This document shows positions 19,347 to 37,670 of a DNA stretch of 64,000 nt, piece by piece. Every line of letters starts with the position of its first letter. Position 1 is the stretch's first letter. The position numbers were made by a program, and so were the translations under genes. The stretch is from Propionispira raffinosivorans DSM 20765 (GTDB lineage: Bacteria; Bacillota; Negativicutes; Selenomonadales; Selenomonadaceae). The DNA is taken from assembly GCF_000381065.1 (NCBI RefSeq), contig NZ_KB905846.1:86651-150650 (forward strand). The letters run 5' to 3'. The notes below the pieces were generated by a model that was not told the DNA's origin, did no database searches, and saw nothing but the letters and a program-made list of their open reading frames with translations.

Positions 19347-19399
19347 GCTGCCCTGTCAGGCGGATTTATGTACCCCGAGCCAAGTTGACCCGAAGTACC

Positions 19400-19459
19400 G
19401 CTATCCACGCAAAAACGTCGCTCATAGTCCCACTAAGGCGGCGTTTTTGCGTGGATAGC
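19400..19459 (+). terminator. long hairpin terminator
   Basis: Arms 19400-19421 and 19438-19459 pair at 21 of 22 positions with a 16-nt loop. It lies between the HxlR gene and the IS4-type relic and could serve both strands. Confidence 0.7.
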
Positions 19460-19483
19460 TCTATTTTCGGTCACGCGTGTTGA

Positions 19484-19966
19484 TTAACCATTAATGTCCA
19501 TATTGAGCGAGTAAACTCTCAAGAATCGGTCACAAAAATGTTGAATGGCAACTTGCCATTCAACTGGCAGTTTTCCCTCAAAATTTTTACGCGTAAAACT
19601 AAGCAAAGAAAGTGGCTTTTCTCTAATGTTTTTATTAACCCAAGTATGCGTATGCTGTAATAAGACATAAGTCAAAAGGGCTGAAAATAATTGATTATAG
19701 ACGGCATTTTTTGTCGTGCCAAACAGTCTCGGAATGTTTGGATTTTGCTTGATCCATCTAAAAAACAGCTCCACTCCCCACCTGGCTTTATAAATTCCTG
19801 CGATCATTTCAGCTGTCACGGTATATAAATTAGTAATTACCCGGATTATTTTTCCTTCATAGTCTGTAAATTCAACAATCCTATGTCGATGAGTCGAGCG
19901 TTTTTGCTTTGTTCCTAATTTGCAGGTGAAGTCATCTATAATATTTGAATCGATATCAGGTAAACG
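19484..19966 (-). pseudogene. 5'-truncated IS4-family transposase
   Basis: The minus-strand frame is open from a stop near 19967 to 19484. It reads SNIIDDFTCKL, then HRIVEFTDYEGKIIRVITN and TAEMIAGIYKARWGVELFFRWIKQN. The last stretch contains the Y-x2-R-x3-E-x6-K motif of IS4-family DDE transposases. The first two thirds are missing, so this is a dead fragment. Confidence 0.85.
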
Positions 19967-20212
19967 TTATACTGGATGCACGCAAGTTATACTGATTAGT
20001 CGTACACTGGTTCATAATCACGATCTACCATGTGACTCATGATGTTCAGCCAAAAACTTACCGTTACTTGTGAGACTGTTCTCTGTATTGGGTATAACGA
20101 CGAAACTTCCATAAATTAGCAACAATTCTACGAGCCTCATTTGCTCCAATAGATTAATCGCACTCATCGCATTAATTACGAACCCAGAGTATTGCTTCAG
20201 GAAAAAACTGTG
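19967..20212. other. intergenic junction, nothing recognised
   Basis: Sequence between the IS4-type fragment and the nitroreductase. No gene or clear repeat is seen. It may contain scrambled transposon sequence. Confidence 0.3.
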
Positions 20213-21010
20213 TTAAATTATGTATGTAGCATCTAGTGAATTTCTATCTACTAATCTCATATATTTATACTTAGGATAACCAACCATAACTGCACCAACT
20301 ACCGTTTTTTCTTCTGAAATATTGAATAAATCAGATAACGGTGAATTTTCGATAGCTGCAAAATGTTCAAAAATACCAGCCCAACAGGTTCCAAGTCCTA
20401 ATGAAGGGGCAAATAACTCCAGATAGGTTAAGCATGAAATAGCATTATTTTTAGCATATGGAAAATTCTTGTCTGCAATAGCTATAATTAAATTTGGTGC
20501 GCCACGGAAAACTGAATCAAGTCCTTTTTCCCTGTAACCTATAATCGCTACTTCTATTAAATGCCTTACAGGGGATTTTTCTGCCATCTGAATAGTTATT
20601 TCAGCAGCTTTTTCAAGTAATTGTTTATTTTCTACGATAACATAGGATATACCCTGACTATTAGACACAGTAGGAGCTAGTCTAGCGATATTCACTAATT
20701 TTGATAACATTTCTCTTGATACAGGCTTGTCATGATAATTTCTTATAGAACGACGAGATCTTAAAAAATGCTCTGCCTGGTGCGGATTTAATTTAGGAAA
20801 ATTATTGGCATCAACTTGTAGCGCCAGTGGTGCTTTCTCGTTATCGATTGCAGAATTAGGACATATTGCAACACAATGTCCACAGGCATTGCAATTGGTG
20901 CTTGCCACTTCTTCCGGCCCTTTTTCTCCCATCTGTAGAACATCTACTGGGCATTCTTTAATGCAAAGTCCACATTTAATACACCTTTCGTTGACCGTTA
21001 TTAAGCTCAT
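20213..21010 (-). CDS. nitroreductase-family protein with N-terminal 2[4Fe-4S] ferredoxin domain
   Basis: 265 aa from ATG 21010, with AAGGAG 9 nt upstream. The ATG three codons earlier abuts the ribosome site. Two complete clusters, CIKCGLCIKECP and CNACGHCVAICP, precede a flavin nitroreductase domain beginning RSRRSIRNYHDKPVSREML and including LGLGTCWAGIF. Electrons probably flow from the ferredoxin domain to FMN to reduce an unknown substrate. This fusion architecture is common in anaerobes. It has a stand-alone nitroreductase gene 340 bp upstream. Confidence 0.88.
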   Translation of the reverse strand: MSLITVNERCIKCGLCIKECPVDVLQMGEKGPEEVASTNCNACGHCVAICPNSAIDNEKAPLALQVDANNFPKLNPHQAEHFLRSRRSIRNYHDKPVSREMLSKLVNIARLAPTVSNSQGISYVIVENKQLLEKAAEITIQMAEKSPVRHLIEVAIIGYREKGLDSVFRGAPNLIIAIADKNFPYAKNNAISCLTYLELFAPSLGLGTCWAGIFEHFAAIENSPLSDLFNISEEKTVVGAVMVGYPKYKYMRLVDRNSLDATYII

Positions 21011-21353
21011 TGTAGTCATCTCCTTAATAAGAATAACCAACACAGGATTTTTCTCCTGGCTGGTTGCATATTTTTTAATCTATGGGCATAATTAGGAACA
21101 CGGGGACAGGTTCTTTGTCCCACTAATTTCTATCCAATAAACAGCTACTTGTAATTTTTAAGTGCTTGTCTTATTTATAAAATTCATGAAATGGAGTTTC
21201 AGGTCGTTTACCATAAAATGGACATCAGTGACTACTTATGGATGGGTAGTTACTGAATACCTTTTTCTACTTCTTCATAATGTAATCAGGACTGTCTATC
21301 TTATTTGTTAATGTCTATAACCTCGTCGTCATGACATTTCATGTTTGATCCTT
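21011..21353. other. 343-bp intergenic region
   Basis: Between two nitroreductase genes. It contains the short palindrome GGGACAGGTTCTTTGTCCC at about 21103-21121, of the kind often seen in dispersed repeats near REP-type transposases. No gene was found. Confidence 0.4.
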
Positions 21354-21875
21354 TTATAACCAGCTTACGATGCTCTCTAAAATATCTCTTCTTCTGGATG
21401 TAGTAGTTTTATTTGGGTAACCAACCGATATCACAGCCATTAGTTCTAAATCATCTGTTGTTCCTACTAGTTCTTTTACCTGCTCTTCCTTTTTTAAGAT
21501 CTCTCCAATCCAGCAAGTTCCCAGACCAAGCTCATGGGCTGCAAGCAACATATTTTGTATTGCCGCTCCTATGGCTTGCACGTGTTTGAGATAAATACCG
21601 TGGATGTTAGGATCGATTACTTTTTTATCGAGAAAGACTGCTATCAAGCAGGGAGCCGTTTGTACCCAACTATGGTAGACTGTAAGTAAGGCAAGCTTTT
21701 CGAGTAGCTGCTCATCATTCATGACGACAGAAAATCTCCACGGTTGAAGATTATTTCCCGATGGTGCCCAGTTAGCAGCCATTAGTATTTTAGTAATATC
21801 ACTGGGGCTTACTTTTTTCGATGTATAGGATCTGATACTTCTACGATTTACGATATGTGGTATTATTGTATCCAT
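21354..21875 (-). CDS. nitroreductase family protein
   Basis: 173 aa, compact FMN-dependent nitroreductase. RRSIRSYTSKKVSPSDI and NWAPSGNNLQPWRFSVV mark the N-terminal FMN-binding region and LGLGTCWIGEIL the second conserved region. It ends with MAVISVGYPNKTTTSRRR. It may act on nitro or quinone compounds with NAD(P)H. It resembles the catalytic domain of the downstream ferredoxin-nitroreductase, and the two may be functionally linked. Confidence 0.88.
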   Translation of the reverse strand: MDTIIPHIVNRRSIRSYTSKKVSPSDITKILMAANWAPSGNNLQPWRFSVVMNDEQLLEKLALLTVYHSWVQTAPCLIAVFLDKKVIDPNIHGIYLKHVQAIGAAIQNMLLAAHELGLGTCWIGEILKKEEQVKELVGTTDDLELMAVISVGYPNKTTTSRRRDILESIVSWL

Positions 21876-22109
21876 ATGAATCGCCTCACATCTTTTTTGA
21901 TTTTTCTTACATGAAGTAACCTTGGTATAGTAAATTATAACTTTATACAGGGAATTCCTTCTTACTTCTATTTACCCTTCTGCCTATTATCTTATGCCCT
22001 ATTATGCGCCTAGCTACGCGTAGGAAGTAACATCAGAAAAAGATTGCTACATTGTATAAGCTGTAAATCCTGCAAACAATGCGCTATCCATTCCATGTTT
22101 ATTTCACTC

Positions 22110-22365
22110 TAGAAATGCTGATGGTATATTTTTGAAATTATTTTCCACTCACCGTCTATTTTAAGCAAATGTTGAAAATCAGTATAGTTCGCGCCATACA
22201 CATTTTCTAAAACTATACGAGCGGAAGCGATCGTACCCTCAATAGCAAGGATATCAATTCTTGCTTTAAGATTCTCTGCAGGTCCGCTTTCATCATGGGC
22301 AATTCTATTTAGATCAACAGCACTTTCTTTACTAATCGTAGCTTTCGGTGGATAGTGTACGCTTT
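22110..22365 (-). pseudogene. 3' fragment of an NTF2-like (SnoaL/lumazine-binding type) protein gene
   Basis: The minus-strand frame reads ATISKESAVDLNRIAHDE, then IDILAIEGTIASARIVLENV and FQHLLKIDGEWKIISKIYH, ending at a stop. This is the typical C-terminal half of small NTF2-like proteins. An in-frame stop precedes it and the N-terminal half is absent. It is probably a remnant of a gene once co-acquired with the neighbouring hydrolase. Confidence 0.65.
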
Positions 22366-22382
22366 ATGAACTAGAGGTGCTT

Positions 22383-22411
22383 GGTATTCGGTATTCGGTA
22401 TTCGGTATTCG
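22383..22411. repeat. 7-bp tandem repeat (GGTATTC x4)
   Basis: Four perfect copies of GGTATTC, located just upstream of the NTF2-like relic. It is a slippage-prone tract with no evident function. Confidence 0.8.
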
Positions 22412-22526
22412 CTCATTTTGAAACTTCCGTCGAATGGTATGTAAGAAACTTCATTTTACAATCTATCATGAGTAAAAATGACTTGGGTAAATATTATCCT
22501 CCCTACTCCCCTGCCAATTATCAACG

Positions 22527-23417
22527 TCAACCTTGAGAGTTATCATCAGTGACCGAGATCCTTTTTAGAAAATTACGAATCAACTCACTGATTTCCACAG
22601 CATGTGTTTCAAGTGCAAAATGCCCCGTATCAAGCATATGTACTTCTGTTGAAGGGATATCACGTTGATAAGCCTTGGCTCCAGCAGGAATAAATGCAGG
22701 ATCATTCTTTCCCCAAACTGCCAAGAAAGGAGGCTGATACTCGCGAAAATAAGATTGAAACGCGGGATAGCGTTCAACATTCGTTCTGTAGTCAAGAATC
22801 AAGTCGAGTTGAATTTCTTCTGCTTCAGGACGAGACAGATATGCTGTGTCCAATGTATATCCATCTGGGGAAACCAAGCTGGCTTTAGTTCCATGAAGAT
22901 ACTGAAAGTCGCGAATCGTTTCCGGAGCCAAGGAATCACGGCATGCTTCACGATTAGCAGGCGTTGGTAAATGCCAATAGGTTTCCCAAGACCCCCATGC
23001 ATCGCTAAAACCTTCCATATATGCATTACCGTTTTGACTGATAATTGCCTTCACGCGCTCTGGATGAGCCATGGCTAGACGATAACCTATCGGTGCGCCA
23101 TAATCAAAAACATAAAGTACATAACGGTCAAAGGCAAGTGCTTCGGTAAATTCCTCGATCACTTTGGCCAGGTTGTCGAACGTATAATCAAATTCACCAC
23201 GCAGCGGAGCCACTGTATTGCCAAAGCCCGGAAGATCAGGAGCGATCACATGATAGCGATCCGCGAGCTTTGGGATTAAGTCACGGAACATATGACTTGA
23301 AGTTGGAAATCCGTGCAAAAGCAGTATAACCGGAGCGTCTTTTGGACCAGCTTCCCTGTAAAAAACTTCAACATTTCCAACCTTTTGCGTACGATAATTA
23401 ATATTCATTTTTTTCAT
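22527..23417 (-). CDS. alpha/beta hydrolase, epoxide hydrolase/haloalkane dehalogenase group
   Basis: 296 aa. The oxyanion motif LLHGFPTSS is at about 34-42. The nucleophile elbow reads LYVFDYGAP with Asp105 rather than Ser, and the catalytic His lies in LDTGHFALETH near the C-terminus. An aspartate nucleophile places it with epoxide hydrolases and haloalkane dehalogenases that form an ester intermediate. The substrate is unknown. It is divergent from a LysR-type regulator, which probably controls it. Codon usage seems more GC-rich than its surroundings, suggesting transfer. Confidence 0.88.
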   Translation of the reverse strand: MKKMNINYRTQKVGNVEVFYREAGPKDAPVILLLHGFPTSSHMFRDLIPKLADRYHVIAPDLPGFGNTVAPLRGEFDYTFDNLAKVIEEFTEALAFDRYVLYVFDYGAPIGYRLAMAHPERVKAIISQNGNAYMEGFSDAWGSWETYWHLPTPANREACRDSLAPETIRDFQYLHGTKASLVSPDGYTLDTAYLSRPEAEEIQLDLILDYRTNVERYPAFQSYFREYQPPFLAVWGKNDPAFIPAGAKAYQRDIPSTEVHMLDTGHFALETHAVEISELIRNFLKRISVTDDNSQG

Positions 23418-23785
23418 CCTCTCTATAATTTTTGTAACTCTTTCAAAGCATAAATAATGCTCCTACAATTTGGCTAGCAATGTACAAAGCGTCTATCGTA
23501 TTAATTCTCGTCAAATACAATTCTACCTAATATTCGTTTACTGCCGTTTTACTGCAGCCTCAGGGGATTAGAAATGCATCCAAGTTCAGGATTCATTCTT
23601 CTTGCAACCGGGCCTCAATCTGAATCCTCGCTTCGTCTCTACATGCTCTCCTTCCTGACATGTCATTGCTATTAAAGTTGCATTTGACGTGTTATGTTGT
23701 TATAATACCATAAGCATATATATTTGACCAACGAATGAATAGAATGCTAGGTATTTTAAATTGCAATACCAAGGAGTAAAATGAT
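23418..23785. other. divergent promoter region of hydrolase and LysR genes
   Basis: 368 bp with no gene. A LysR-type operator is expected here. Several AT-rich partial palindromes exist but none is decisive. The LysR gene has AAGGAG upstream of its ATG. Confidence 0.4.
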
Positions 23786-24688
23786 ATGATTGATCCATTA
23801 GAAGGACGTTTTTTTCAAGCATTCATAGCTGTACTGGAGGAAAAAAGTTTTAGCCGTGCGGCTGATAAGTTAGGCTATGTTCAATCGACTATAACTACCC
23901 ACATTCAGTTATTAGAAAAAATCTGCGGTCAAAGATTATTTCATCGACTTCCTCGTGAGGTTAAGCCCACAGAGGCAGGAGTAAAACTCTCTAAATATGC
24001 TTACCAATACATCCATTTGAGCAACTGTATTCAGGAAAGCATGGATGCACTGGATCAGCCACATGGAACTGTTCGAGTCAGAATGCAGGAATCTTTTTTT
24101 CTCACCCGCATGTTGCCGTTTATGCAGCGATACATCAAGGAGTGTCCTGAAGTGAAGCTACGTGTGGAAGCGGGATTTTATCAAGATATTCTGGATGGAG
24201 TATTAGATTTTGCTGTTGACTTTGGAATAGTTCCTCAAAATCCAGATCGTCATGAAATTCTTTTTTATCCGTTAATAGAGGAAAATATCGTATTTACTGC
24301 ATCACCAAGATTAGCCCTGGAGGTTAAAGATTTAGGTGTTCAAGTTCTAAACGGGGAGATCTTTATCAGTGGCGGAACGTCTTGCTTGTATCATACTAAA
24401 GCAAGTGAAGTTTTAAAAAAATCTGGAGTTCAGGTCAAAGATGCATTAGAACTAGCAAGTCTTGAAATGATTAAACAGATTGTAAGCTGTGGTAAAAGCT
24501 TTGCTCTGATTCCTGAAATAGCTATAAAAAAAGAACTGAAATTCGGAGAACTTAAGGTTTTACCGTTCAGCCCTAAGATGAATTTTACCCATGGTCTAAT
24601 TGTTCACAAGGACCGGGAGTTAACTTCTACTGCCAAACGTTTCCAATCTCAACTTATTGATTTTTTTAGCAACGAAGAAAAATGTTAG
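23786..24688 (+). CDS. LysR-family transcriptional regulator
   Basis: 300 aa. The N-terminal winged helix (FFQAFIAVLEEKSFSRAADKLGYVQSTITTHI) is followed by a periplasmic-binding-protein-like co-inducer domain (aa 90-295). Its divergent position suggests that it senses the hydrolase substrate or product and controls that gene and itself. It is followed by a strong terminator. Confidence 0.9.
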   Translation: MIDPLEGRFFQAFIAVLEEKSFSRAADKLGYVQSTITTHIQLLEKICGQRLFHRLPREVKPTEAGVKLSKYAYQYIHLSNCIQESMDALDQPHGTVRVRMQESFFLTRMLPFMQRYIKECPEVKLRVEAGFYQDILDGVLDFAVDFGIVPQNPDRHEILFYPLIEENIVFTASPRLALEVKDLGVQVLNGEIFISGGTSCLYHTKASEVLKKSGVQVKDALELASLEMIKQIVSCGKSFALIPEIAIKKELKFGELKVLPFSPKMNFTHGLIVHKDRELTSTAKRFQSQLIDFFSNEEKC

Positions 24689-24738
24689 GTACTTACGATG
24701 AAAAAGGAACACACATCGATAAAATCAACTGTAACAAA

Positions 24739-24774
24739 AAAGACTTAAGCCTCAATACAAGAGCTTAAGTCTTT
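24739..24774 (+). terminator. terminator of the LysR gene
   Basis: Perfect stem AAAGACTTAAGC (24739-24750) with GCTTAAGTCTTT (24763-24774), loop of 12 nt. Confidence 0.75.
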
Positions 24775-24860
24775 CTAACTATCTATTTTTATTTTTTACC
24801 AATACCCTATTCCCCTTATTTTCCTCTTAAAAATAACCTGATCTTTATTCAGGCCATTAT

Positions 24861-24914
24861 TCGCCGTTACAAGTGATACGATTCTGCGTATCATTGGTAA
24901 AGGCGATTTTTTTT
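24861..24914 (+). terminator. second hairpin terminator with long T tract
   Basis: Nested stem TCGCC/GGCGA with inner TGATACG/CGTATCA, followed by TTTTTTTT. Confidence 0.75.
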
Positions 24915-25048
24915 ACAAAATAAGTCACTTAAACGAATAAGTCGTGCCCCCATGACCTCACAATTTCCTTCTACTCAACAGAACCGTCCCCTCGATTCGA
25001 TTTTATTGAAGGATTAGACCACCAATTTCCGAAAGAAACCAAGTATAA

Positions 25049-25607
25049 TCAACTAATTTTACACTTATCTACTAGGCTTTGCTGCCATTCGTTCCCTTTC
25101 TTCGTTTGATGCATCTCGCCGTCGCGGCAGTTTTGTTTATTCTTAGTAGAGCTGGGTGCCTCTAGGATGGTCGCGTCAACGATGGTGCCCTCTTTCATGA
25201 GCATACCTTGATCACTTAGACTCCCGCTAAGCTGGGTGAACATCTTTTTTGTCAGATGGTGACTTTCCAAAAGGTGGCGGAACTTCAGTAATGTTGTTGC
25301 ATCCGGCACTGACTCACTGGATAAGTCGATCCGGCTAAACTGGCGCAGGGCCTGACTGTCGTAAACAGCGTCTTCCAGCCCTTCATCCGAAAGGTGATAC
25401 CAGACCTGGAGTAGATAAAGACGCAGCATGCGTTCACATCCGATTGGCGGACGGCCACGTTTGCCTTGCGGATAATGGGGTTCGATGAGAGCTACCCATT
25501 CACGCCAGGGAACCCTTCTCTCCATCTGCTGTAAGAACCGGTCACGACGCGTCTGCTTTTTCTTGCCGGCATATTCCCACTCGCTAAAGGACGTCTGTTT
25601 ATCCAGC
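25049..25607 (-). pseudogene. truncated IS5-family transposase
   Basis: The frame begins near 25607 without a good start codon (SFSEWEYAGKKKQTRRD, the usual IS5 N-terminus). It continues through MERRVPWREWVALIEPHYP, IGCERMLRLYLLQ and GTIVDATILEAPSSTKNK, which carries the first catalytic Asp. It then breaks off after HQTKKGNEWQQ, before the remaining DDE residues. About 180 of roughly 320 codons remain, so it is dead. Confidence 0.85.
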
Positions 25608-25768: not shown

Positions 25769-27232
25769 TTACAGCAGGTGTAGTATCTGTTCAGCAAGCT
25801 CACCGTCCGCATAATCAGAAATATATGGCAGACAAGCTTCAAAATCTCTACGGCGCATATTCGTTAAATCCCTTACCTTGCGCCATGTCAAATCATCACT
25901 CGTATCTTCTACCTGATGTGCAGCCCAAGCTACTTCCCTAGCCCAATATTGCTCCTGTGATTCCTCATGCCGATGTATTTCAGCAAGGCATTTTGGCAGA
26001 TATAAAGATATTTTCTTACTGGAAAGATGCAAGATTTTCTCAACAGTAAAAGTAGTAATCTTTTTAGGTCTGGTTGTTCCATCACCCTGTAGCTGGCTGA
26101 TAGCTTCTTTTACAAGTGGTAGTGTATTCTCATCAATGTGATTCCAGTTTTGAGGCTTCGCGCCGCTTTTGAGTGATACTTTAGTTGGCTTATGATAAGT
26201 TCCATACCTCCGTTCACCGATAGCCTTAACAATCACATATGGAGCACTGAGAGTTTTCGCAATAGCCGGATACTTCACCCCCTTTTCATGAAGTCTGTAA
26301 ATCGCTTCATCAAAAAGCTGTTGTTGTGTTTTCTCTGGCAGTTCCATATGTACCATTTCATCAGTGGTAACACCAAGAAATATAGCCATGAGACAGATTT
26401 CATAGAAGTTCACTCTATCATTCGTCAGCACCTTCTGTATCTGCCATAACTCCGTAAACCAGTTTTGGGACAAATTCCTATAATACTCTGTAAAATCTGC
26501 ATGAAAGAGTGCAATATTACGCTGCTCTCCACGTACAGAACGATATTGGGTATTAGCCATTTTGGAATGAAGAAAATCACCAACCGTAACACATGAATCC
26601 ATGTCAACATCAGCCTGAAAAACCTCTACCATATATGCGGCAACACGAATTTCGATTTCATGATCCGCAAATACGCATGATTCCGATTGTGGTATCATTT
26701 CCTCTGCTGTTTTTAAAAAGGGCGTAGCTTTCCCACTGATCATCACACCGCTATCCATCAAGTAACACCGATGAACTGGGCAAACATGAATTCCTATTAT
26801 CTGGTGTATCCGATGCCAATATGCTTCTCCACATTGTTCTCTATCATGAGCTGCACAAGCCGGACAGTAGCACAAACAACGAACTTTGCCATTCTTGCTT
26901 TGAGGTATCGACAAGAGATTATAGTAATTCCCCAACATAGATACCAATGATTGAAATGCTTTTTGTCTGCGTTCTCTCGGCAGAAATCGCCCATAGCAAG
27001 GGAACATCGTATGTTTTTCAATGACTGCTTCCATGGATATATTCCTTGTTATGGCCTGTACTGCGGCAGGAGTATAACAATTGATAAAATCCATATCTGG
27101 GCGTGCAGTCTTTGATAAAAACAATTCTTCAGCCGCAAAGCTGTAAGCCATATATCCTGATTTCGTGTAGTATCGTGCCAACTGGCTATAAAGTAGCTCA
27201 TCTGGATATGCAGCAGGGAAATAAGCTATCAT
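25769..27232 (-). CDS. tnsD: TniQ/TnsD-family target-selection protein of a Tn7-like element
   Basis: 487 aa, close in length to Tn7 TnsD. It opens with FPAAYPDELLYSQLARYY, the typical TniQ start. A zinc-finger region follows (about aa 118-160: CLCYCPACAAHDREQCGEAYWHRIHQ with CPVH). A long C-terminal part rich in helix-turn-helix-like segments comes next. In Tn7, TnsD recognises a chromosomal attachment site and recruits TnsC. The start codon overlaps the tnsC stop (ATGA). The position beside guaA suggests guaA as the recognised site (inference). Confidence 0.85.
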   Translation of the reverse strand: MIAYFPAAYPDELLYSQLARYYTKSGYMAYSFAAEELFLSKTARPDMDFINCYTPAAVQAITRNISMEAVIEKHTMFPCYGRFLPRERRQKAFQSLVSMLGNYYNLLSIPQSKNGKVRCLCYCPACAAHDREQCGEAYWHRIHQIIGIHVCPVHRCYLMDSGVMISGKATPFLKTAEEMIPQSESCVFADHEIEIRVAAYMVEVFQADVDMDSCVTVGDFLHSKMANTQYRSVRGEQRNIALFHADFTEYYRNLSQNWFTELWQIQKVLTNDRVNFYEICLMAIFLGVTTDEMVHMELPEKTQQQLFDEAIYRLHEKGVKYPAIAKTLSAPYVIVKAIGERRYGTYHKPTKVSLKSGAKPQNWNHIDENTLPLVKEAISQLQGDGTTRPKKITTFTVEKILHLSSKKISLYLPKCLAEIHRHEESQEQYWAREVAWAAHQVEDTSDDLTWRKVRDLTNMRRRDFEACLPYISDYADGELAEQILHLL

Positions 27233-28470
27233 ACCGCTACCTCCACTACAGACATATCGGACTTTAAAAGCTGCACAATATCCATATTTTCATTCTTGGC
27301 TTTAGCAACCAAATCAGCAATACTAATGCGAGCATCTGAAGTTTCATTTCCAACCGTGTGGACAAGCGTTTTTTTCTTGATTTTAGAAGTCTGCTTACCT
27401 TGCGAAATAGACGGCTGAATATAGCCATGAAGTAGAGATAAACGCTGTTGATAGGCTTCGTTCAAAGATTCCAGATTCAAAATTTCTTTGCCATTCAAGA
27501 TTGCGATTTCCTGTGCATCATGAATCAACGCTACCACAACCGATGTAATTCCTGCGCTATGTTCATAAAGCCATGCAAGGATTCCATCCGTTATTTCCGT
27601 TCTTTTTTGTACATATTGATACTTGAACATGACTTTGCAAAACTCTTGAAAATATTTGTCATTGCTCATAGTCGTATACTGCAATCCCACGGAACGTCGT
27701 GCAAGTTGCATCGCCGATTCAAAGAACCTGCTACTTTCAGGAGTACCGACCATGCAGATACTAATTCCACTATTATTGATAAGCTGTGTCAAAGCCCCAA
27801 TCAAGTTTTTTCCATTTTTACTGTTAGCTACATTTTGAATTTCATCCACCACCAGCATACCGATATGATTAAGAGCAACCTGACTGACAGAGCCAATAAG
27901 CATATCCGTTGTAGCTCTTGCCCTTAAAGCATTCTGATAGTATTTACTATCTAAAACTTCATCAACTTTACGCAGAACCTCCAATAACAGACCCTTTACT
28001 GACGAATCAAAGGGGCATTGTACAATCACACTCGGAACGACATGCGTATAGGGATTATCAGCTTCAATTACTCGATTCTCTGTAATCAGGTTAATGGATC
28101 TGCTGATAGCAGAACTCTTACCGATACCAGATGTTCCAATAATCGTAAAGCTGTCAGAGCCGCCCATGATGCCGCTATATTCCTGCTGTATGATAGCTCT
28201 ATAGTTTTGATTCTGCTGCTGTATTGCCAACTTCGTTCCCTTCTTCTGCATAGATCGCAAAAGAGCCAAATACAATTTGCTATAGATTTCCAGCGACATT
28301 TGTGATGGAATATACAACCTGTATAAATCCGATAACGCCATAAGCCTGACGGGAGCATCCGCATTACAGCTTGCCGGATTATATTTAGGCAATACTTCCA
28401 ATGCTGTTATCAAATCAGTTCCCGACTTCATACGAGGCAGAACATTGATGATGTCTGAAAAATTTATCAT
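27229..28470 (-). CDS. tnsC: TnsC-like AAA+ ATPase transposition regulator
   Basis: 413 aa. Walker A GTSGIGKSS is at 112-120 and Walker B with sensor MLVVDEIQNV at about 204. The segment ISICMVGTPESSRFFE follows. It belongs to the TnsC/TniB group of AAA+ proteins that bridge the target selector and the transposase and impose target immunity. It has ATGA overlaps with both tnsB upstream and tnsD downstream, so the operon is tightly coupled. Confidence 0.9.
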   Translation of the reverse strand: MINFSDIINVLPRMKSGTDLITALEVLPKYNPASCNADAPVRLMALSDLYRLYIPSQMSLEIYSKLYLALLRSMQKKGTKLAIQQQNQNYRAIIQQEYSGIMGGSDSFTIIGTSGIGKSSAISRSINLITENRVIEADNPYTHVVPSVIVQCPFDSSVKGLLLEVLRKVDEVLDSKYYQNALRARATTDMLIGSVSQVALNHIGMLVVDEIQNVANSKNGKNLIGALTQLINNSGISICMVGTPESSRFFESAMQLARRSVGLQYTTMSNDKYFQEFCKVMFKYQYVQKRTEITDGILAWLYEHSAGITSVVVALIHDAQEIAILNGKEILNLESLNEAYQQRLSLLHGYIQPSISQGKQTSKIKKKTLVHTVGNETSDARISIADLVAKAKNENMDIVQLLKSDMSVVEVAV

Positions 28471-30293
28471 GGTTTGGCTCCTTTCATATAGTCTCTATGG
28501 TGTTTACTCTGCTCCCGTTTCCGGGTGTCACGAATGTTTTTAATGCTTACATCAATACTGCCTCCAACGTTGTCAGTAATAGTCTCAATGTGCCGCGCAA
28601 GACTAATCTGTGCCTGTAGATTATCCGGCTTGGTTCCTCTTGCAATGGCTCTCTGGGCTGTCTGTAAACTCTGTACAGCAGTCAAATCTTTACCCTCAAA
28701 TCTGGATTCAATAATGGTAAATTTAGTATATATTCCATTTTCCAATAGCCATACAGAAGTAACGTCCTCTGGATTATAGGCAGCCATGACTTCACCACCA
28801 TTGAGATATTGCTCTGTATACCCGTCACAATGATAACGCATTTTGTTCACTTTCAAACCAAACCTGCTAAATTTACCTATGACTCTTGGCAATAGCGTAA
28901 GTATAAGCTCTTTAGCACCTACTTCAATCAAATTGGCTCCCATTTGGAATTTACCCCAATTCCAGATACAACTTGCATATGGTTTTACATTCTCGGCAAT
29001 CAGGACTTCGGTATAGGGAAAATTCTCAACTATCCGTTGGGAGTTGTAATAAATGATGCAATAAAGGATAATTTTCTCAAAGTTCGCCATGGTCAAGCAA
29101 GCGTCTTTCCTGTAGTCATGCACTCCCCGCTCCTGATAATCAAGCTCAATCACGCCCTTGCCTTTCAAGTGCTTTTTATAGGTTGACTGAATTACATCAA
29201 AGAATTTTTCCACCATGCCTTTCAACTCAGGTCTATACGAGGGAAGGTTAATTACTTTAACCCCCAGCTCGGCAATTTGCTCAAAGTTTTCAGATTTGTA
29301 TTCACTTCCCATATCCGTAACCAAAGTAGCAGGCATTTTATCACAAGACCAATCCTCTGCATTTATAGAAATGCCAAACTGTTTGCACCAAGCGGCTTTA
29401 TCCACAATAATGTTCAACATCAGCCCTCTAAGGCTATACACGCCACCCGCCCATGATAAGACATACCCGCAACATAAACCGCTGTAAGCGTCAATACAGG
29501 TCGTTAAAATGGGTCTGCCCACAAGATTGCCAGCATCATTGATAAGGTAAATATCGCATACAGTAGCGTCCAGCATACCAACGCCAATGGCAGGAGCAAA
29601 CGATTGTATACCATCGCCAATAAGAGGCCGGTTGTTTCTCTGGTAATTCTTTAATCCATCTCGAGAAATATAAAAGTTCTGTATCTTCTTTGTCTTACGG
29701 TAGAAGTAACGAAATTGATAGAAAGAAGGATACGCATCTGCTAAAACACCTATACCGTCACAATATTTCTCTTTCAATAGCATGGTATAAGCAGTCATAA
29801 GGGATTGCTTTTTCGTAGTATAAAAAAACTTATTCAAAGCCCATCGTATGTTTTGTTCATCTTGTGTGAGCTTTCCATCATCATCTAAGCGCTGCCTTGG
29901 AGCAAGGGCTGTTATATTCATATAGGCTAGATACAGGCACAAATAGATCCGAATAGTCTGCTTTGATATGTTATTTTCTATAGCTGTAGAACTAATAACT
30001 TTAGAACGCATTCTTTCATCCACTATAAAAGGGAGAATCGGTGCAATCAGCGTGTAACGATCATACATTGCTTTTCTCTGGTCAGCATCCAAAGCATCAA
30101 TAGTAGTGACTGCAAAATTCGTAGCCTCGTTCAGCACTTCACCAGTGCATTGGGAGAAGGAATCCAAAGCTGAAAATTCCACCCATACGGGCATAGTCCT
30201 TTTGATGCAATCAATAATGAGAATTTTATCAGTCAGTATCTCTAAAACCCTGATAATGTTGTTACCATCCTTCAACAAATCATGCTTCTCCAT
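28467..30293 (-). CDS. tnsB: TnsB-like DDE transposase of a Tn7-like element
   Basis: About 608 aa if translation starts at ATG 30293 (overlapping the end of tnsA). The longer reading from 30323 adds ten residues. A retroviral-integrase-like catalytic core is visible: first Asp in GMLDATVCDIYL, second Asp in LVTDMGSEYKS, Glu in LKGMVEKFFDV, with YYNSQR further on. The C-terminal beta-barrel region follows. It cuts the 3' transposon ends and joins them to target DNA. A partial decayed homologue lies at 16391-16517. Confidence 0.92.
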   Translation of the reverse strand: MEKHDLLKDGNNIIRVLEILTDKILIIDCIKRTMPVWVEFSALDSFSQCTGEVLNEATNFAVTTIDALDADQRKAMYDRYTLIAPILPFIVDERMRSKVISSTAIENNISKQTIRIYLCLYLAYMNITALAPRQRLDDDGKLTQDEQNIRWALNKFFYTTKKQSLMTAYTMLLKEKYCDGIGVLADAYPSFYQFRYFYRKTKKIQNFYISRDGLKNYQRNNRPLIGDGIQSFAPAIGVGMLDATVCDIYLINDAGNLVGRPILTTCIDAYSGLCCGYVLSWAGGVYSLRGLMLNIIVDKAAWCKQFGISINAEDWSCDKMPATLVTDMGSEYKSENFEQIAELGVKVINLPSYRPELKGMVEKFFDVIQSTYKKHLKGKGVIELDYQERGVHDYRKDACLTMANFEKIILYCIIYYNSQRIVENFPYTEVLIAENVKPYASCIWNWGKFQMGANLIEVGAKELILTLLPRVIGKFSRFGLKVNKMRYHCDGYTEQYLNGGEVMAAYNPEDVTSVWLLENGIYTKFTIIESRFEGKDLTAVQSLQTAQRAIARGTKPDNLQAQISLARHIETITDNVGGSIDVSIKNIRDTRKREQSKHHRDYMKGAKP

Positions 30294-30627
30294 CAATGAC
30301 CAGCCCCCAATCTGTGACACCATGCCTTAACCAGTATTCCCTTGAAACATCTAACAGTTTGATTGTAAGCGGCTTCATCAGTAACTTACGAAATACGCAT
30401 TCTCGCACCATCAAATCATTGTCAGACTTGACGCAGACAAAATCCGATGTGTATTGGCTAATGTCCCGCCCATCAAGCGGGACATTGCATCTGATCTCTT
30501 TTACCTCATCACTCGCTTGCAAAATATCCGCATAAGCGTACTGGATGACATCATATGTCCTGCATACCTCATTGCACTTGGCAATGACACGTTTCTCACA
30601 ACGACCTTTAAAATTTTTCTTCCTCAC
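30280..30627 (-). CDS. tnsA: compact TnsA-like endonuclease
   Basis: 115 aa, less than half the length of Tn7 TnsA (about 273). The central piece QYTSDFVCVKSDNDLMVREC aligns with the TnsA catalytic region, and SREYWLRHGVTDWGLVIDG with the conserved end of its N-terminal domain. The DNA-binding C-terminal domain is absent. The Asp of SDF is present, but the usual Q-x-K after the second strand reads R-E-C here. Strand-cleavage activity is therefore uncertain. First gene of the tnsABC-tnsD operon, overlapping tnsB. Confidence 0.7.
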   Translation of the reverse strand: MRKKNFKGRCEKRVIAKCNEVCRTYDVIQYAYADILQASDEVKEIRCNVPLDGRDISQYTSDFVCVKSDNDLMVRECVFRKLLMKPLTIKLLDVSREYWLRHGVTDWGLVIDGEA

Positions 30628-30672
30628 CTTTGCAAAACCTCCATATTAGGAACGCTCTGCTGCTTGACTCCA

Positions 30673-30846
30673 TTTTCCCAAAAGCGCTCCCCAAAAATGA
30701 AAAGGGGCGGTTTTGGGGGAATTGGATCTTCCGTTTTTGGGAAATAAATCATCATGAATATATACTCTTATCCCGTATTACGGGCGTTTCAAGCCAACAC
30801 TCATGAAAATCACAGCACTATGCTTTTTCCCAAAAAGCATAAAAGA
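30673..30846. repeat. three TTTTCCCAAAA-type sites, candidate TnsB-binding arm
   Basis: Sites at 30673-30683 (direct), 30734-30744 (inverted) and 30834-30846 (near-palindromic) lie just upstream of tnsA. Multiple transposase-binding repeats near the end are a hallmark of Tn7-like elements. Binding is inferred. Confidence 0.4.
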
Positions 30847-30862
30847 AAATATCACCATGTCG

Positions 30863-31108
30863 CGGGGCACTGCCGTTTATTCTGTAAAGGGCATTTTTCT
30901 TTATTCTCTCTGGCTTTGCCAGAAATACCTGCCACTCCATGGTGAACGCTCTTTTTCGCAAGCAGAAATCCCTTTATTTACGCGGGTGGAGGATAAAAAA
31001 ACGACCCTGCATAAGCTTCGAAAAGCTTTAATGCAAGGTCGTTTTTGTCTATGTCGGCAGGCTAAGCCATTTGACCCTTTTCAGAATAAATGGCAGTGCC
31101 CCGAGACA
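30863..31108. mobile_element. 246-bp segment bounded by ~35-bp inverted repeats abutting guaA
   Basis: The left arm starts TGTCGCGGGGCACTGCC (30863, plus) and the right arm TGTCTCGGGGCACTGCC (31108, minus). They share about 35 bp with four mismatches. The right arm begins 8 bp after the guaA stop codon. Ends starting TGT are usual for Tn7-like transposons. The segment contains a strong terminator. It could be a non-autonomous mini-element or the remains of two element ends. Confidence 0.5.
30995..31046. terminator. bidirectional terminator inside the repeat-bounded segment
   Basis: Stem AAAAACGACCCTGCAT...AAGCTT with AAGCTTT...ATGCAAGGTCGTTTTT. A and T runs on both sides allow termination in either direction. 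It is probably the operative guaA terminator. Confidence 0.75.
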
Positions 31109-31115
31109 ATTAAAT

Positions 31116-32651
31116 TCATTCCCACTCGATCGTCGCGGGTGGTTTAGAAGTTACGTCGTAGACAATACGGTTTACGCCTTCTACTTCGTTTACGATACGA
31201 CGGGAAACTTTATCGAGTACTTCATAAGGGATATGTGCCCAATCAGAAGTCATCGCATCGGAGCTGGTTACAGCACGAAGAGCTATTGTATGGCAATACG
31301 TACGTCCATCCCCCATTACACCTACTGAACGTATATTAGGCAGGCAGGCAAAATACTGCCAGATTTTTTCTTCGAGACCGGCTTTCGCGATTTCATCACG
31401 GAAGATTGCATCCGCTTCACGCGTAACCAGTAATTTTTCTTCGGTCACTTCACCTAAGACACGAATGGCAAGCCCCGGACCTGGGAAAGGCTGACGCCAT
31501 ACAAGTTTATGTGGGATACCGAGTTCTTCACCAACGGCACGAACTTCATCTTTAAACAGTTCCCGCAATGGTTCGATCAAACCAAATTTCATATCTTTTG
31601 GTAAACCGCCTACATTGTGATGGCTTTTGATCGTTGCCGAAGTTTTTGTTCCACTTTCGACAACATCTGGATATATCGTACCTTGAACCAAATAATCAAT
31701 CTGTCCAAGTTTATTCGCTTCTTCTTCGAACACACGAATGAATTCTTCACCGATAATTTTACGTTTTGTTTCGGGGTCAGAAACACCTTTTAATTTTCCT
31801 AAAAAACGATCTTTCGCATCGACACGAATCAAATTCATATCGAATTGTTTTCTGAAAATCGTTTCTACTTGATCGCCTTCATCTTTTCTAAGCAGACCAT
31901 GATCAACAAAAACACAAGTTAATTGTTGTCCCACAGCACGATGCACTAAGACCGCAGCAACGGAGGAATCCACACCACCGGATAATGCACAGAGAACTTT
32001 TTTCCCGCCGACCAGTTCTTTAATCGCTGCAATTTTTTCTTCAGCAAACGAAGCCATATTCCAGTCGCCACTAACTTTACAAATATCAACTAAGAAATTA
32101 GAAATCATTTGTCTGCCAAATGGTGTATGTTCTACTTCCGGATGGAATTGTACTCCATATAATTTTTTTGCTTCATTAATCATAGCCGCAACAGGTGTGG
32201 TTTTGGTAGATGAAACGACCTTAAAACCAGCTGGAGCTTCAGACACATAATCCATATGGCTCATCCAGCTTTCATTATCTGAATCAATCCCTTTAAATAA
32301 GTTAGCTGATGAATCAAGTGTTAGTGCTGTTTTACCATATTCACCGGATGCAGCATGTTCAACTTTACCACCTAATGTATAGGCCATAAACTGATGTCCA
32401 TAACAAATCCCCAAAATAGGAATACCCAGTTCAAATATTTTTGGATCTGCTTTAGGAGTATCCTCTGCATATACACTATTCGGACCACCCGAAAAAATAA
32501 TTCCCTTTGGGTTCTCCGATTTAATTCTTTCAATACTGCAATCATATGGCACAATTTCACAATACACGCCACATTCTCTTACCCGTCTGGCAATTAATTG
32601 GCTATATTGTCCGCCAAAATCCAGCACTAATAACATCTCTTTGTTGCTCAA
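31116..32651 (-). CDS. guaA: GMP synthase (glutamine-hydrolysing)
   Basis: 511 aa, full length. The class I glutamine amidotransferase domain (aa 1-195) has the nucleophile Cys in LGICYGHQF and the His/Glu in VQFHPEVEH. The ATP pyrophosphatase domain has the P-loop [12 protein letters not shown]. The dimerisation domain ends [18 protein letters not shown]. It converts XMP to GMP. The 3' end, the most conserved part, directly faces the Tn7-like module and is a plausible attachment site. No purine riboswitch is evident upstream. Confidence 0.97.
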
Positions 32652-33831: not shown

Positions 33832-33875
33832 AAGAAACGGTTTACAGATAAAATTTGTTCTGTAAACCGTTTCTT
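33832..33875. terminator. bidirectional terminator
   Basis: Perfect stem AAGAAACGGTTTACAG (33832-33847) with CTGTAAACCGTTTCTT (33860-33875). It overlaps the last base of the stop codon of the convergent MTAP-like gene. Confidence 0.85.
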
Positions 33876-34705
33876 TATTTATTATAAACTTCTTTGAGTA
33901 ACGTTTCTTTTCGCAAATCTTTGCACTCGCATGTATCCCCATCAAATGGTAAATTTCGGATCGTATCGAGGATGATCTTGCTAATCATCGGTGCATCATC
34001 ATAAAAAATAGCTTCGAGATCATCATGTGACCAAGATTTTACGATACCTTCACCATAATTAACTGTATAATAAAGGCCCGCATAACACGCACCAATCTCA
34101 CGGGCAAGATATACTTCTGGGCAAATGCTTTGTCCAACAATGTCAGCATGCCCTTTGAGCATGGCAATTTCAGCCGGACTTTCAAAATGGCGACCATCCG
34201 TATTCGCATAAATACCTCGTGTAAAAATCCGCCCATCAAAATGCTTACGGGTCTGCTCAATAAGCTCAGCGCGCATTTGTGTACATAAAGCATCACGCAT
34301 GACCAATAAATAGCGACCTTCAAGCCCCACGTCCTTACGTACGGACATATCAAGATAATCATCAGGAATCATAAAATCACGAATATCCATCAAATGATTA
34401 ATGGTACCAACACCACCTTCAGCGATAATACGTTTCACGCCGGCTTCACGAAATACCCAAAACACTTGACGAGAAGCATCAGCGCGACCGACACCACTGC
34501 GCCAGCCATGCATTTTACAGGTAATAACTTTTTTATCGGCTACTTGAAAAATACGAAATAACGGACTTTCGCCATACGGTGTTTCAAAAACCAGATTATC
34601 TTCTATTATTTTCACATCCGCTGCCTTTGCGCCTAACGGAAAATCACTTGATAATGTACCCGAACCGCCAACTACAGCGTATTGGGCTTGAGGAATTGTC
34701 TTCAT
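33875..34705 (-). CDS. MTAP/PNP-family nucleoside phosphorylase in the futalosine operon
   Basis: 276 aa. Phosphate and nucleoside motifs of the MTA phosphorylase family are present: VVGGSGTLSSD, EGGVGTINH, and TRGIYANTDGRHFESPAEI followed by GQSICPEVYLAREIGACYA. It is the last gene of mqnE-mqnA-mqnC-this gene. In the futalosine pathway the base must be removed from (aminodeoxy)futalosine, normally by the MqnB or MTAN hydrolases. A phosphorylase in this position probably does that step, perhaps alongside methylthioadenosine recycling. The exact substrate is inferred from context. Confidence 0.82.
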   Translation of the reverse strand: MKTIPQAQYAVVGGSGTLSSDFPLGAKAADVKIIEDNLVFETPYGESPLFRIFQVADKKVITCKMHGWRSGVGRADASRQVFWVFREAGVKRIIAEGGVGTINHLMDIRDFMIPDDYLDMSVRKDVGLEGRYLLVMRDALCTQMRAELIEQTRKHFDGRIFTRGIYANTDGRHFESPAEIAMLKGHADIVGQSICPEVYLAREIGACYAGLYYTVNYGEGIVKSWSHDDLEAIFYDDAPMISKIILDTIRNLPFDGDTCECKDLRKETLLKEVYNK

Positions 34706-34707
34706 TT

Positions 34708-35733
34708 TTAAAATCTCCTAATTATATTATATTCTGTATCACGCTGTGCCGCTTCATAACCCGCTGCACGGATCATATTGACCATCTTATCGATCGACAT
34801 TTGATAGGCCGTGCCAGCCGCACGTACAACATTTTCTTCTAGCATGATACTGCCAAGATCATTGGCACCAAAAGCCAATGTAACCTGTCCAATATTTTGC
34901 CCCTGTGTGACCCATGAGCCTTGAATATGAGAAATATTATCCATATAAAGGCGCGTCATTGCCAATGTTTTCAAATAGTCCCAAGACGATGTTTTCTCAC
35001 CACCAAGCTGCGTATTCCCCGGCTGGAAGGTCCACGTAATAAAAGCACGAAATCCACCTGTTTTTTCTTGCAGCGCCCTCACCTTTTCCATATGTTCAAT
35101 GCGATCTGCCATGGTTTCTCCCATGCCAATGACCATCGTAGCCGTACTTTCCATACCGATTTGATGCGCACATTCCATAACATGAAGCCAGTCATCTGTC
35201 ATGATTTTTTTCGGACTAACACGCTGTCGGATTCGGTCAACCAGAATTTCCGCTCCGCCGCCCGGCAAAGAATCAAGGCCGGCTGCCTGAAGTTCCTTCA
35301 ATGTATCAAGTACGGAACGGCCTGCCTGTTGCGCCATATATAAAACTTCCGTAGCTGTAAAGGAATGTATGCGAATATCAAATTTTTCTTTGATGGTCGA
35401 GAGCATATCTACATAATAAGCTAAATCCAGCTCTGGATGCAGACCACCTTGAATCATGACCTGCGTGCCACCGGCATCTATCGTTTCTTGAATTTTATCT
35501 AAAATAGTCTGTTTCGATAGAACATAGGCATCTTTATCATCTTGGCGTTTAAAAAATGCACAAAATTTACATTCATTTACACAAATATTACTGTAATTGA
35601 TATTTCGATCGATGATAAAGGTTACCGTTTTCCCTGGATGTTTTTTCTGTCTTTCTATATCTGCCATTTTCCCCAGCGCCAATAGATCACCATGGCACAA
35701 AAGTTCCAGACCTTCTTTTTCTGTCAAACTCAT
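34708..35733 (-). CDS. mqnC: cyclic dehypoxanthinyl futalosine synthase (radical SAM)
   Basis: 341 aa. The radical SAM motif C-xxx-C-xx-C lies in NYSNICVNECKFCAFFKR, and the rest follows the CofH/MqnC family (GLHPELDLAYYVD, LDSLPGGGAEILVDRIR). It cyclises dehypoxanthine futalosine in menaquinone synthesis. The stop codon is 2 bp from the start of the phosphorylase gene and the start overlaps the mqnA stop, so it belongs to one operon. Confidence 0.9.
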   Translation of the reverse strand: MSLTEKEGLELLCHGDLLALGKMADIERQKKHPGKTVTFIIDRNINYSNICVNECKFCAFFKRQDDKDAYVLSKQTILDKIQETIDAGGTQVMIQGGLHPELDLAYYVDMLSTIKEKFDIRIHSFTATEVLYMAQQAGRSVLDTLKELQAAGLDSLPGGGAEILVDRIRQRVSPKKIMTDDWLHVMECAHQIGMESTATMVIGMGETMADRIEHMEKVRALQEKTGGFRAFITWTFQPGNTQLGGEKTSSWDYLKTLAMTRLYMDNISHIQGSWVTQGQNIGQVTLAFGANDLGSIMLEENVVRAAGTAYQMSIDKMVNMIRAAGYEAAQRDTEYNIIRRF

Positions 35734-36569
35734 CGATAAACCTCCGCTATTTCAATTTCCGGTACATGATCGATCAAATTCAATTCATGCGCCATCGTGT
35801 AAAAAGTCAAAAGAGCTTCTAAATGTTCCTGCCCTAAATCCCATTTGATCACATCGAGATATTCATCCAGCTGCGTAAAGGAAAATGGTTTGCTATCTAG
35901 AATCGACTCAATCGCCTGTCTTTTTTTTGCATACCCGTTTTTAAAACCCTGTGTCACTTTTTCATACGTGTACTGCACAAGATCCGGTCTTTTTTCAGCA
36001 AATTTTCGATTTACAACCCAAACAGCATATACCATACGAAGCCCTGTTAACTTTTTCCATTGCGCCCCAATATCATAATAATACAAACCTGCCTGTTTAT
36101 GATATTTCGCATAAAGTGCATCATCACCGATCAAAAGTTTGGCTGTAATATCGCCCGATAGCACAGTATCCATATCAATATTACGGATATAGTAATTGGG
36201 TCTGGCGCCATACGCCTTACTGAGCACAATTTTCAAAAGACAATGTGAAGTCGCCGATTTTGCCGTTAAGAGAATTTTATCATTGCTCAATTTTTCAATT
36301 GGTTTTTTCGATACTAAAATTATGCTTTGAACATCACCATCAGCTGTAATGCTCACGTCTGGCATAAGCAAAAGTTTTTCATTATTGCGTGCATAAATAA
36401 TGGACGATACCGGACTTACGTCAAGCCGGTTCTGAACAATATCTTCATTAAGCACAGACGGCACAGCGGATGAAACAGCTAAGCCCTGGTCAAAGCCATC
36501 ATATTTTAAACTGTATGTCAACGGCAGACAGTTTAAAAAATTAATGTGCCCTAATTTAGGAGTTTCCAC
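35730..36569 (-). CDS. mqnA: chorismate dehydratase
   Basis: 279 aa of the MqnA/MqnD periplasmic-binding-like fold. KLGHINFLNCLPLTY at the N-terminus, DVSPVSSIIYARN and LLIGDDALYAK are typical. It makes 3-(1-carboxyvinyloxy)benzoate, the entry to the futalosine route. It overlaps mqnC by 4 bp and follows mqnE by 24 bp. Confidence 0.92.
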   Translation of the reverse strand: METPKLGHINFLNCLPLTYSLKYDGFDQGLAVSSAVPSVLNEDIVQNRLDVSPVSSIIYARNNEKLLLMPDVSITADGDVQSIILVSKKPIEKLSNDKILLTAKSATSHCLLKIVLSKAYGARPNYYIRNIDMDTVLSGDITAKLLIGDDALYAKYHKQAGLYYYDIGAQWKKLTGLRMVYAVWVVNRKFAEKRPDLVQYTYEKVTQGFKNGYAKKRQAIESILDSKPFSFTQLDEYLDVIKWDLGQEHLEALLTFYTMAHELNLIDHVPEIEIAEVYR

Positions 36570-36593
36570 AAAAACCCCTCCTTACGTCTATAT

Positions 36594-37670
36594 TTATTTC
36601 ACGAGATGATAGAAGGTATCTCGTTCTATCGGCACATAGCCTGTTTCTTCAACCATTTTTATAATTTCTAATTTTGTAATTCCTGCTTTTGTTGTAGCCC
36701 CGGCAGCATGGATTATTTTTTCTTCTTCCACTGTGCCATCCAGGTCATCAACACCAAAAGCCAGAGCAAGCTGCGCAATTGGCTGAGTCAGCATCATCCA
36801 AAAGGCTTTAATATGATCTATGTTATCTAAAATCAAACGTGACAACGCAATCATTTTGAGATCTTCCCATGAAGAAACACGTTTTAAATGAGAAAGCTCT
36901 GTATTTGCCGGATGAAAGGGAAACGATACATACGCTTGAAAGCCATTTGTCTCATCTTGTATATCGCGTAATGTAAATAAATGAGAAATTCGCTGTTCTA
37001 TTGTTTCAATGTGGCCGTACATCATTGTCGCATTCGTTAAAATACCAAGATGATGGGCTGTTTTAATTGTTTCAATCCACTGCGCTGTTGTGGCTTTATT
37101 CGGACATATGATTTTACGTACCGCATCATCTAAAATTTCTGCACCACCGCCTGGCAGAGAATCCAGTCCGGCTTCTTTTAATATAATCAGTACTTGTTTT
37201 ATGGACAAATCTGCAATTTGGGCAAAATGAACAATTTCCACTGGCGTAAAGGCTTTTAAATGAACCTTCGGCAAAACATCTTTCACCGTCTTAACAATAT
37301 CCACATAATAAGAAAATGGTTCATCTGGATGCAGTGCACTTACCATATGAACTTCCGTGAGTCCAGGTGTTTTTTTTGCTGTTGCAATAAGCATTGTGCG
37401 TATTTCTTCTTTTGACAAAATAAACCCCTGCGGATCTCCTGCTTTACAGGAAAATGCACAAAGCGGACAATTTGCTGTACAAATGTTTGTCAAATTGATA
37501 TGCCGATTCACATTGTAATAAACTTTCTTGCCGGTTTTTCGTTCTTTGGCGACACGCGCCCACTCGGCCAAAGATAATAAATCATTCAAACGATACAATT
37601 CCATTGCATCATCAAAGGATAATCGTATGCCCTGAGCCGCTTTTTGCGACGCTGTTAAGTTTGCTTTCAT
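36594..37670 (-). CDS. mqnE: aminofutalosine synthase (radical SAM)
   Basis: 358 aa. YYNVNRHINLTNIC followed by TANCPLCAF carries the radical SAM cysteines, and VHMVSALHPDEPFSYYVD and LDSLPGGGAEILDDAVR are family features. It joins the MqnA product to the adenosyl moiety of SAM. It is the first gene of the four-gene operon, so the promoter should be between 37671 and 37756. Confidence 0.9.
   Translation of the reverse strand: MKANLTASQKAAQGIRLSFDDAMELYRLNDLLSLAEWARVAKERKTGKKVYYNVNRHINLTNICTANCPLCAFSCKAGDPQGFILSKEEIRTMLIATAKKTPGLTEVHMVSALHPDEPFSYYVDIVKTVKDVLPKVHLKAFTPVEIVHFAQIADLSIKQVLIILKEAGLDSLPGGGAEILDDAVRKIICPNKATTAQWIETIKTAHHLGILTNATMMYGHIETIEQRISHLFTLRDIQDETNGFQAYVSFPFHPANTELSHLKRVSSWEDLKMIALSRLILDNIDHIKAFWMMLTQPIAQLALAFGVDDLDGTVEEEKIIHAAGATTKAGITKLEIIKMVEETGYVPIERDTFYHLVK

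Follow-up and report, generated by a model that had tools for sequence, protein, structure and literature searches.

The stretch analyzed here, 64,000 nucleotides of Propionispira raffinosivorans DSM 20765 (contig NZ_KB905846.1, positions 86,651 to 150,650; hereafter the window), contains a Tn7-like transposition module directly behind guaA, the host gene for GMP synthase (31116–32651, minus strand; Pfam GATase and GMP_synt_C), whose 3' end is the putative attachment site. Four genes on the same strand—tnsA (30280–30627), tnsB (28467–30323), tnsC (27229–28470), and tnsD (25769–27232)—are open and intact and are directed away from the 3' end of guaA, as a first-pass annotation of this DNA had described. 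That annotation also had the genes joined throughout by ATGA junctions; such 4-nt overlaps are present at B/C and C/D, whereas tnsA and tnsB overlap by 44 nt when counted from the first start codon (less with an inner ATG). TnsB is a DDE transposase (Pfam Mu-transpos_C), TnsC an AAA+ regulator (Pfam TniB/AAA, i.e., TniB and AAA_22), and TnsD, which combines a TniQ domain (Pfam, 62.9 bits) with a long C-terminal part, is the putative guaA-binding target selector. Compared with solved structures, the three match TnsB, TnsC, and TnsD of Tn7 (E 1.8e-36, 5e-21, and 1.3e-12, respectively), and in an alignment over 160–580 the three acidic D-D-E positions of TnsB coincide with those of Tn7 TnsB (7pik), which we take to be its catalytic residues. 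TnsA is a short form of 115 amino acids for which loss of the catalytic Glu and Lys is predicted.

Between guaA and tnsA lies the right end of the element, again on the minus strand. A 7-nt spacer (31109–31115) separates the guaA stop codon from the element's right boundary at 31108; within it, 31109–31113 is the presumed 5-bp target sequence, of which no second copy was found, the left end being lost. There follows a 251-bp right-end unit (30858–31108) that runs from TGTC to GACA (the ends of Tn7 are TGT...ACA), with inverted-repeat arms of 34–35 bp (31075–31108 and 30858–30891) and, inside, a hairpin with a T-run (30997–31046) that is likely a substitute guaA terminator. The leader from this unit to tnsA (30640–30857) carries repeated TTTTTGGGAA-like motifs, seen by eye in relatives as well, and is likely the tns promoter/operator. 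Leftward the island extends to about 11031.

It is very likely, in our judgment, that this is a Tn7-like transposon whose right end sits 7 nt behind the guaA stop codon and whose TnsD recognizes the guaA 3' end. Homologue searches gave 890 relatives of TnsD, the more distant among them 65–75% identical, and 1890 of TnsA. When TnsD was searched in 380 Negativicutes genomes (cut-off E 1e-20), 14 genomes had matches and 11, the window's among them, had a full-length close TnsD (78–100% identical); in all 11, guaA immediately precedes tnsA on the same strand. A separate scan yielded six loci, i.e., four on the same contigs, one (locus L007) in a Clostridia metagenome-assembled genome where guaA is upstream of tns too, and one (L008) that begins inside the unit. 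With L008 and a second, partial tns copy at a contig end of genome G110 excluded from the count, guaA, and not the glmS that marks Tn7 proper, stands beside the close TnsD in 12 of 12 testable genomes (11 Negativicutes and the Clostridia genome). None of six distant TnsD matches (29–37%, in five regions) lies beside guaA; one of these regions is directly behind a gene that reads, by eye, as glmS. The distance from guaA stop to element end is nearly constant: among 22 loci it is 6 nt in 15, 7 nt in four, and 109 nt in one (Propionispira arboris), while in the remaining two (G162 and G347), where the arm has diverged and the script found no end, it is 6 and 8 nt by eye. The alignment of guaA 3' ends covered 16 of the 22 loci, six having been removed by a motif filter.

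The region behind guaA was also compared in 14 sister genomes that represent three genera. Twelve have an empty guaA site with no trace of the element and two (G303 and G163) contain units behind guaA. Identical 5-bp target duplications bound seven of the 11 elements or unit arrays with pairable outer flanks (ATAAG, AAAGA, TAATA, CTAAA, CAATA, TCCTT, and AAAGA), three of the pairs on one contig and four across contigs; cross-pairing the flanks of six of the seven gave no identical pair in 30 combinations. These counts do not treat as separate elements the single units of G303 (flanks identical for u1 but not for u2) or its u3–u4 pair (not identical), and no usable outer-flank pair came from G000, G024, G028, G034 (left unit at a contig end), G040 (left unit cut off), G104, G105, G121, G162, G163, G347, or L007. 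Two complete elements define the ends exactly. The one in G301 spans 47,578 bp, from AAAGA-TGTC to GACA-AAAGA, and past its left end comes a hairpin resembling the ones that follow guaA where sisters have an empty site, and then chromosome as in empty G302; the one in G307 spans 32,981 bp with ATAAG on both flanks. The first-pass proposal that guaA is the attachment site of this family is thus supported by the neighbors of close TnsD homologues, by exact ends with matching duplications, and by empty sites in relatives.

Two flanks merit description in their own right. In P. arboris (L034:2706-2820 and L135:3948-4320), whose right end is 109 nt behind guaA, native flank from about +3 follows the left end, so that both sides of the element have ~107 nt of this flank including its hairpin, an arrangement that no simple 5-bp duplication accounts for. 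In G033, GAATA reappears if the end is short by 4 nt; this was left uncounted.

Several observations weigh against this assignment. The flank pairs of P. arboris, G161, G016 (one mismatch), and G033, i.e., four of 11, are not identical; the four cross-contig end pairs are presumed to be single elements; and the flanks behind three left-type units (G121, G161 C66, and G016 C46) are not tied to guaA. The window itself is without a left unit and without a target duplication, the predicted structure of TnsD is poor (predicted local distance difference test score, pLDDT, 61.6), and the context from beyond the Negativicutes is a single locus (L007), since a sample of 398 genomes across the phylum gave a close TnsD in the window's own genome only.

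Were guaA and tns an old neighborhood inherited vertically, their adjacency would be uninformative on target choice. Identities of the Tns proteins and of GuaA do correlate weakly (r 0.32–0.50 for TnsB, TnsC, and TnsD), and close genera tend toward closer elements. Yet the element is patchy, both among the 380 genomes and within genera, its ends are exact, most sister genomes have empty sites, and the 5-bp duplications differ from element to element. Moreover, when the 11 Negativicutes genomes are compared two by two, TnsB is more similar than GuaA in 51 of the 55 pairs (mean identities 86.7 vs. 69.0%), TnsC in 51, and TnsD in 50. Vertical inheritance is, on this evidence, highly improbable and, because similarity is mostly higher among the Tns proteins than among the GuaA of their hosts, the element has likely moved into the guaA site repeatedly. 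We find it scarcely credible, too, that a tyrosine-integrase island uses guaA and carries the tns genes as passengers: guaA is a known site of integrase-borne islands (GIsul2/Tn6591, described as integrating in guaA in PMC8239412), but the 5-bp duplications fall exactly at the tns-linked TGT/ACA ends, no search aimed at integrase genes having been made. Such islands share with the present element the host gene and differ in enzyme and boundaries. A separate observation concerns G161 (L067 / L038), whose guaA shares only 63% identity with that of one congener, three further congeners being 85–90% alike; it has a variant (EFE) tail and looks foreign, yet the transposon is at the same place.

The end units and the short TnsA were not foreseen by the first-pass annotation. 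Units are present in 22 of the 380 Negativicutes genomes and lie behind guaA in 21, G121 having a left-type unit only on the stretch read; 26 aligned complete units measure 248–253 bp. Wherever both ends are known, the element has two such units in direct orientation, each bounded by 35-bp inverted repeats, and the right-end unit of the window has counterparts behind guaA in relatives. The inner flank of the left unit is AACAAGGTCGAGGATACTA in seven of 10 cases and ends in ATACTA in all 10, and TGGTGAT comes after the right-end unit in all 18 loci where tns DNA, or what remains of it, follows. Within a single element the left and right units share 85.8–100% identity (G301, 99.6%; G111 and G034, 100%; G110, 93.2%; P. 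arboris, 91.6%; G303 u3/u4, 88.1%; G307, 85.8%), the two being on different contigs in G111, G034, G110, and P. arboris. Neither unit of G307 resembles its partner as much as it does units from other genomes, a pattern suggestive of exchange between stacked elements. Within each arm, GGGCAnnnnnnTTTATTCT-like repeats at a spacing of 24 bp are candidate TnsB sites, and in the five units inspected the second repeat is often weak; arrays of ~20-bp transposase-site repeats at both ends are described for Tn7-like elements in PMC8649781. In G162 (L039:3928-4188), the right-end unit keeps its inner arm intact, but unrelated sequence with a small hairpin of its own (by eye) stands in place of the outer arm.

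Seventeen of 18 aligned units share a similar hairpin with a T-run; the Clostridia unit differs and has, by eye, a hairpin of its own. Because insertion separates guaA from its own hairpin, the unit probably supplies the gene with a terminator. The claim rests on repeat search and alignment: a promoter/terminator consensus scan did not flag the unit hairpin, its 1 and 2 sites standing against 0.8 and 0.8 expected. Units also occur alone. Between guaA and a decayed element in G303 there are two solo units, of which the first has AAAGA on both sides and the second is followed by TTAAA; deletion between direct units or movement of a mini-element would each give such solo units.

The second departure is TnsA, which at 115 amino acids has no Pfam match at E 0.001. 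Because homologues are similarly short (113–174 amino acids among 120 listed of 1890) and the match is near full length (residues 1 to 112–115) in seven related loci, the window's included, the small size reflects a short form of the protein rather than truncation at this locus; four TnsAs from distant elements in the same class have 265–287 amino acids and both Pfam TnsA domains. Profile comparison aligns residues 33–113 with the N-terminal TnsA domain (probability 93%, E 3.3e-7), the Pfam model of which gives weak matches in 23 of 36 homologues (best E 0.0074); the C-terminal domain is absent from the short form. The references have an invariant Glu, Asp, and Lys (E63, D116, and K136 of L045), presumably the three catalytic residues of Tn7 TnsA. 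In the profile alignment the Asp falls on Asp62 and the Lys on Val78, while an extension of the alignment by four residues at its start puts the Glu on Gln29; none of the 36 aligned homologues departs from Val78 or Gln29. TnsA here seems, by this alignment, to be without two of its three catalytic residues. Counting against an inactive TnsA is that the argument is one of alignment, the predicted structure being too poor to use: models of TnsA (pLDDT 57.6) and TnsD gave no usable fold match, and TnsA gave nothing relevant against PDB by sequence or profile. As a CRISPR transposon with a TnsA mutant yields >95% cointegrates (reported in PMC8188705), transposition in the present family may be replicative, a prospect likely enough to be worth testing.

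On both the units and TnsA, a competing account has to be reckoned with. The 250-bp units may be free-standing miniature inverted-repeat transposable elements mobilized in trans by TnsABC and TnsD, with the large element a composite of two. Each unit does have TGT and ACA ends with 35-bp inverted arms, changes are often matched (for 18 of the 74 pairs predicted over the whole unit, at least one of 18 sequences has both sides changed), a solo unit of G303 has AAAGA on both sides, and half of the unit-bearing genomes (11 of 22) have no full-length close TnsD. Solo units at guaA are, however, also expected of recombination remnants, and the inner flank that left units have in common is what a transposon end would show; we regard free-standing units as possible, though well short of an even chance. 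Closer to even, but still on the lesser side of it, is the prospect that the element moves by ordinary Tn7 cut-and-paste with a short TnsA active through other residues. The protein has been kept and is highly conserved (mean column identity 89% over the 36 homologues), and a lysine (K81), at least 90% conserved, lies three residues past the expected place; against activity stand the invariant Val78 and Gln29 at the catalytic Lys and, by extension, Glu positions and the missing C-terminal domain.

The window's own copy is damaged at its left. The end unit has one full copy in the window's genome, at guaA; the commonest left inner flank has no match in the window with up to three mismatches, and lax end patterns gave, besides the right-end unit, only matches with 7–8 substitutions. 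A left end within the window was rejected after these searches. So was a repeat at 17760–18033, which has no TGT/ACA end by eye; it is one of a dispersed kind (~270–290 bp) found also in P. arboris and Pectinatus. A second dispersed repeat of similar length (~270–290 bp) occurs on contigs C4, C10, C18, C33, and C38 of the same genome and adjacent to the P. arboris left end. The window's genome belongs beside that of P. arboris (locus L004; GuaA 100% identical), and since DNA beyond the P. arboris left end matches window positions 11031 to 7659 at 97% identity, the chromosome resumes there (flank 7659–11031) and the island spans ~20 kb (11032–31108), with the left unit and the native guaA hairpin known from P. 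arboris gone. Having lost its left unit, the window's element is probably stranded.

The first-pass annotation had placed the cargo in the mosaic to the left. This held for a segment at 13370–16385 that is shared with the P. arboris element (92.6–96.1% identity; DJ-1/ferredoxin protein and MocR-type regulator) and fits with the chromosome resuming at 11031; the rest of the island (11032–25048), with radical SAM protein, small exporters and a guanidine-I riboswitch, nitroreductases, alpha/beta hydrolase, and LysR genes, is probable cargo. An IS5-family transposase fragment (25049–25525, minus strand) lies directly behind tnsD. At the edge of the shared segment is a remnant of a second tnsB (16386–16514, minus strand; 77% identity to the window tnsB over 133 aligned positions), which fits stacked elements. 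The riboswitch (13102–13196) precedes two exporter genes that are, by eye, of the small-multidrug-resistance type (12368–13196 in all). In the complete elements, 20 cargo proteins (ten each from G301 and G307) were scanned by Pfam and 10 of these by PADLOC. Those of G301 include a molybdopterin oxidoreductase set and helicases; in G307 there are a DarT adjacent to an ADP-ribosylglycohydrolase, an AbiJ-domain protein, a serine resolvase, and a member of the UG31 reverse-transcriptase defense group. No cas families were among the Pfam matches of 29 island and cargo proteins, no search aimed at cas having been made, and two helicases match Cas3 models weakly among the 10 proteins in PADLOC. Elsewhere in the window, to the right of guaA, are a cluster resembling the futalosine pathway of menaquinone synthesis (33875–37670; two radical SAM proteins, MqnA-like, by eye) and a thiamine pyrophosphate riboswitch (53601–53696, minus strand).

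Set beside known systems, the element resembles Tn7 in its tnsABCD order, in having its tnsA end beside a conserved essential gene, in inserting just behind the stop codon with a 5-bp duplication, and in the sequences of TnsB, TnsC, and TnsD. Tn7 itself is described as having a glmS site and TnsABCD+E (PMC2918618; PMC11406308) and as inserting ~20 bp behind the glmS stop (PMC2918618), whereas the target here is guaA at 6–7 nt; the ends here are similar direct 250-bp units, in contrast to Tn7, whose left (166 bp) and right (90 bp) ends are described as unlike; and TnsA here has only 115 amino acids. Other Tn7-like elements at parE, tRNA genes, yhiN, and comM (PMC11406308, Table 1) are likewise steered beside a conserved gene by a TniQ-family protein. 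The word guaA is absent from the main texts of PMC10293859, PMC8649781, and PMC11406308, and guaA is not named as a Tn7-like site in the open literature searched, a listing in a supplement or a subscription paper being possible. If TnsA is inactive here, movement by cointegrates may be shared with TnsA-less Tn7-like elements (Tn5053 and the type V-K CRISPR-associated transposon), which differ in that a TnsA homologue is here kept and conserved and a serine resolvase is present in the G307 element. By analogy only, direct terminal repeats and a solo repeat with target duplication recall elements of the long-terminal-repeat (LTR) or composite type, unlike which the present one has a DDE transposase with TnsC and TnsD and units that end in inverted repeats.

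We propose the following course of events, as read from sequence comparison. TnsD would bind conserved guaA codons, TnsC would pass this target signal to TnsB, and TnsB would join the outermost TGT...ACA ends a few nt behind the guaA stop, leaving tnsA adjoining guaA. Insertion would sever guaA from its own terminator, and the hairpin of the right-end unit would replace it. Recombination between direct units could then delete the inside and leave solo units, much as solo LTRs arise. Less surely, TnsA may no longer cut and movement may pass through a cointegrate. Taken whole—a Tn7-like branch that homes to guaA, has abandoned cut-and-paste, retains a non-cutting TnsA partner, has LTR-like ends in the form of two direct 250-bp units, each of them a mini-transposon complete in itself, multiplies by way of cointegrates, piles up behind guaA, gives guaA a new terminator, and leaves solo units to mark past visits—this picture is tentative, and we would not yet bet on all of its parts holding together.

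With these data guaA, an essential gene of wide occurrence, joins the attachment sites used by Tn7-like elements, and it does so with exact ends and empty sites, such that a reconstituted guaA-directed insertion system could be built and tested. Direct repeats that are themselves made of inverted repeats, together with a conserved and apparently non-cutting TnsA, pose the question of how these elements choose between cut-and-paste and replication, while solo units at guaA would make past insertions readable from genome sequence alone.

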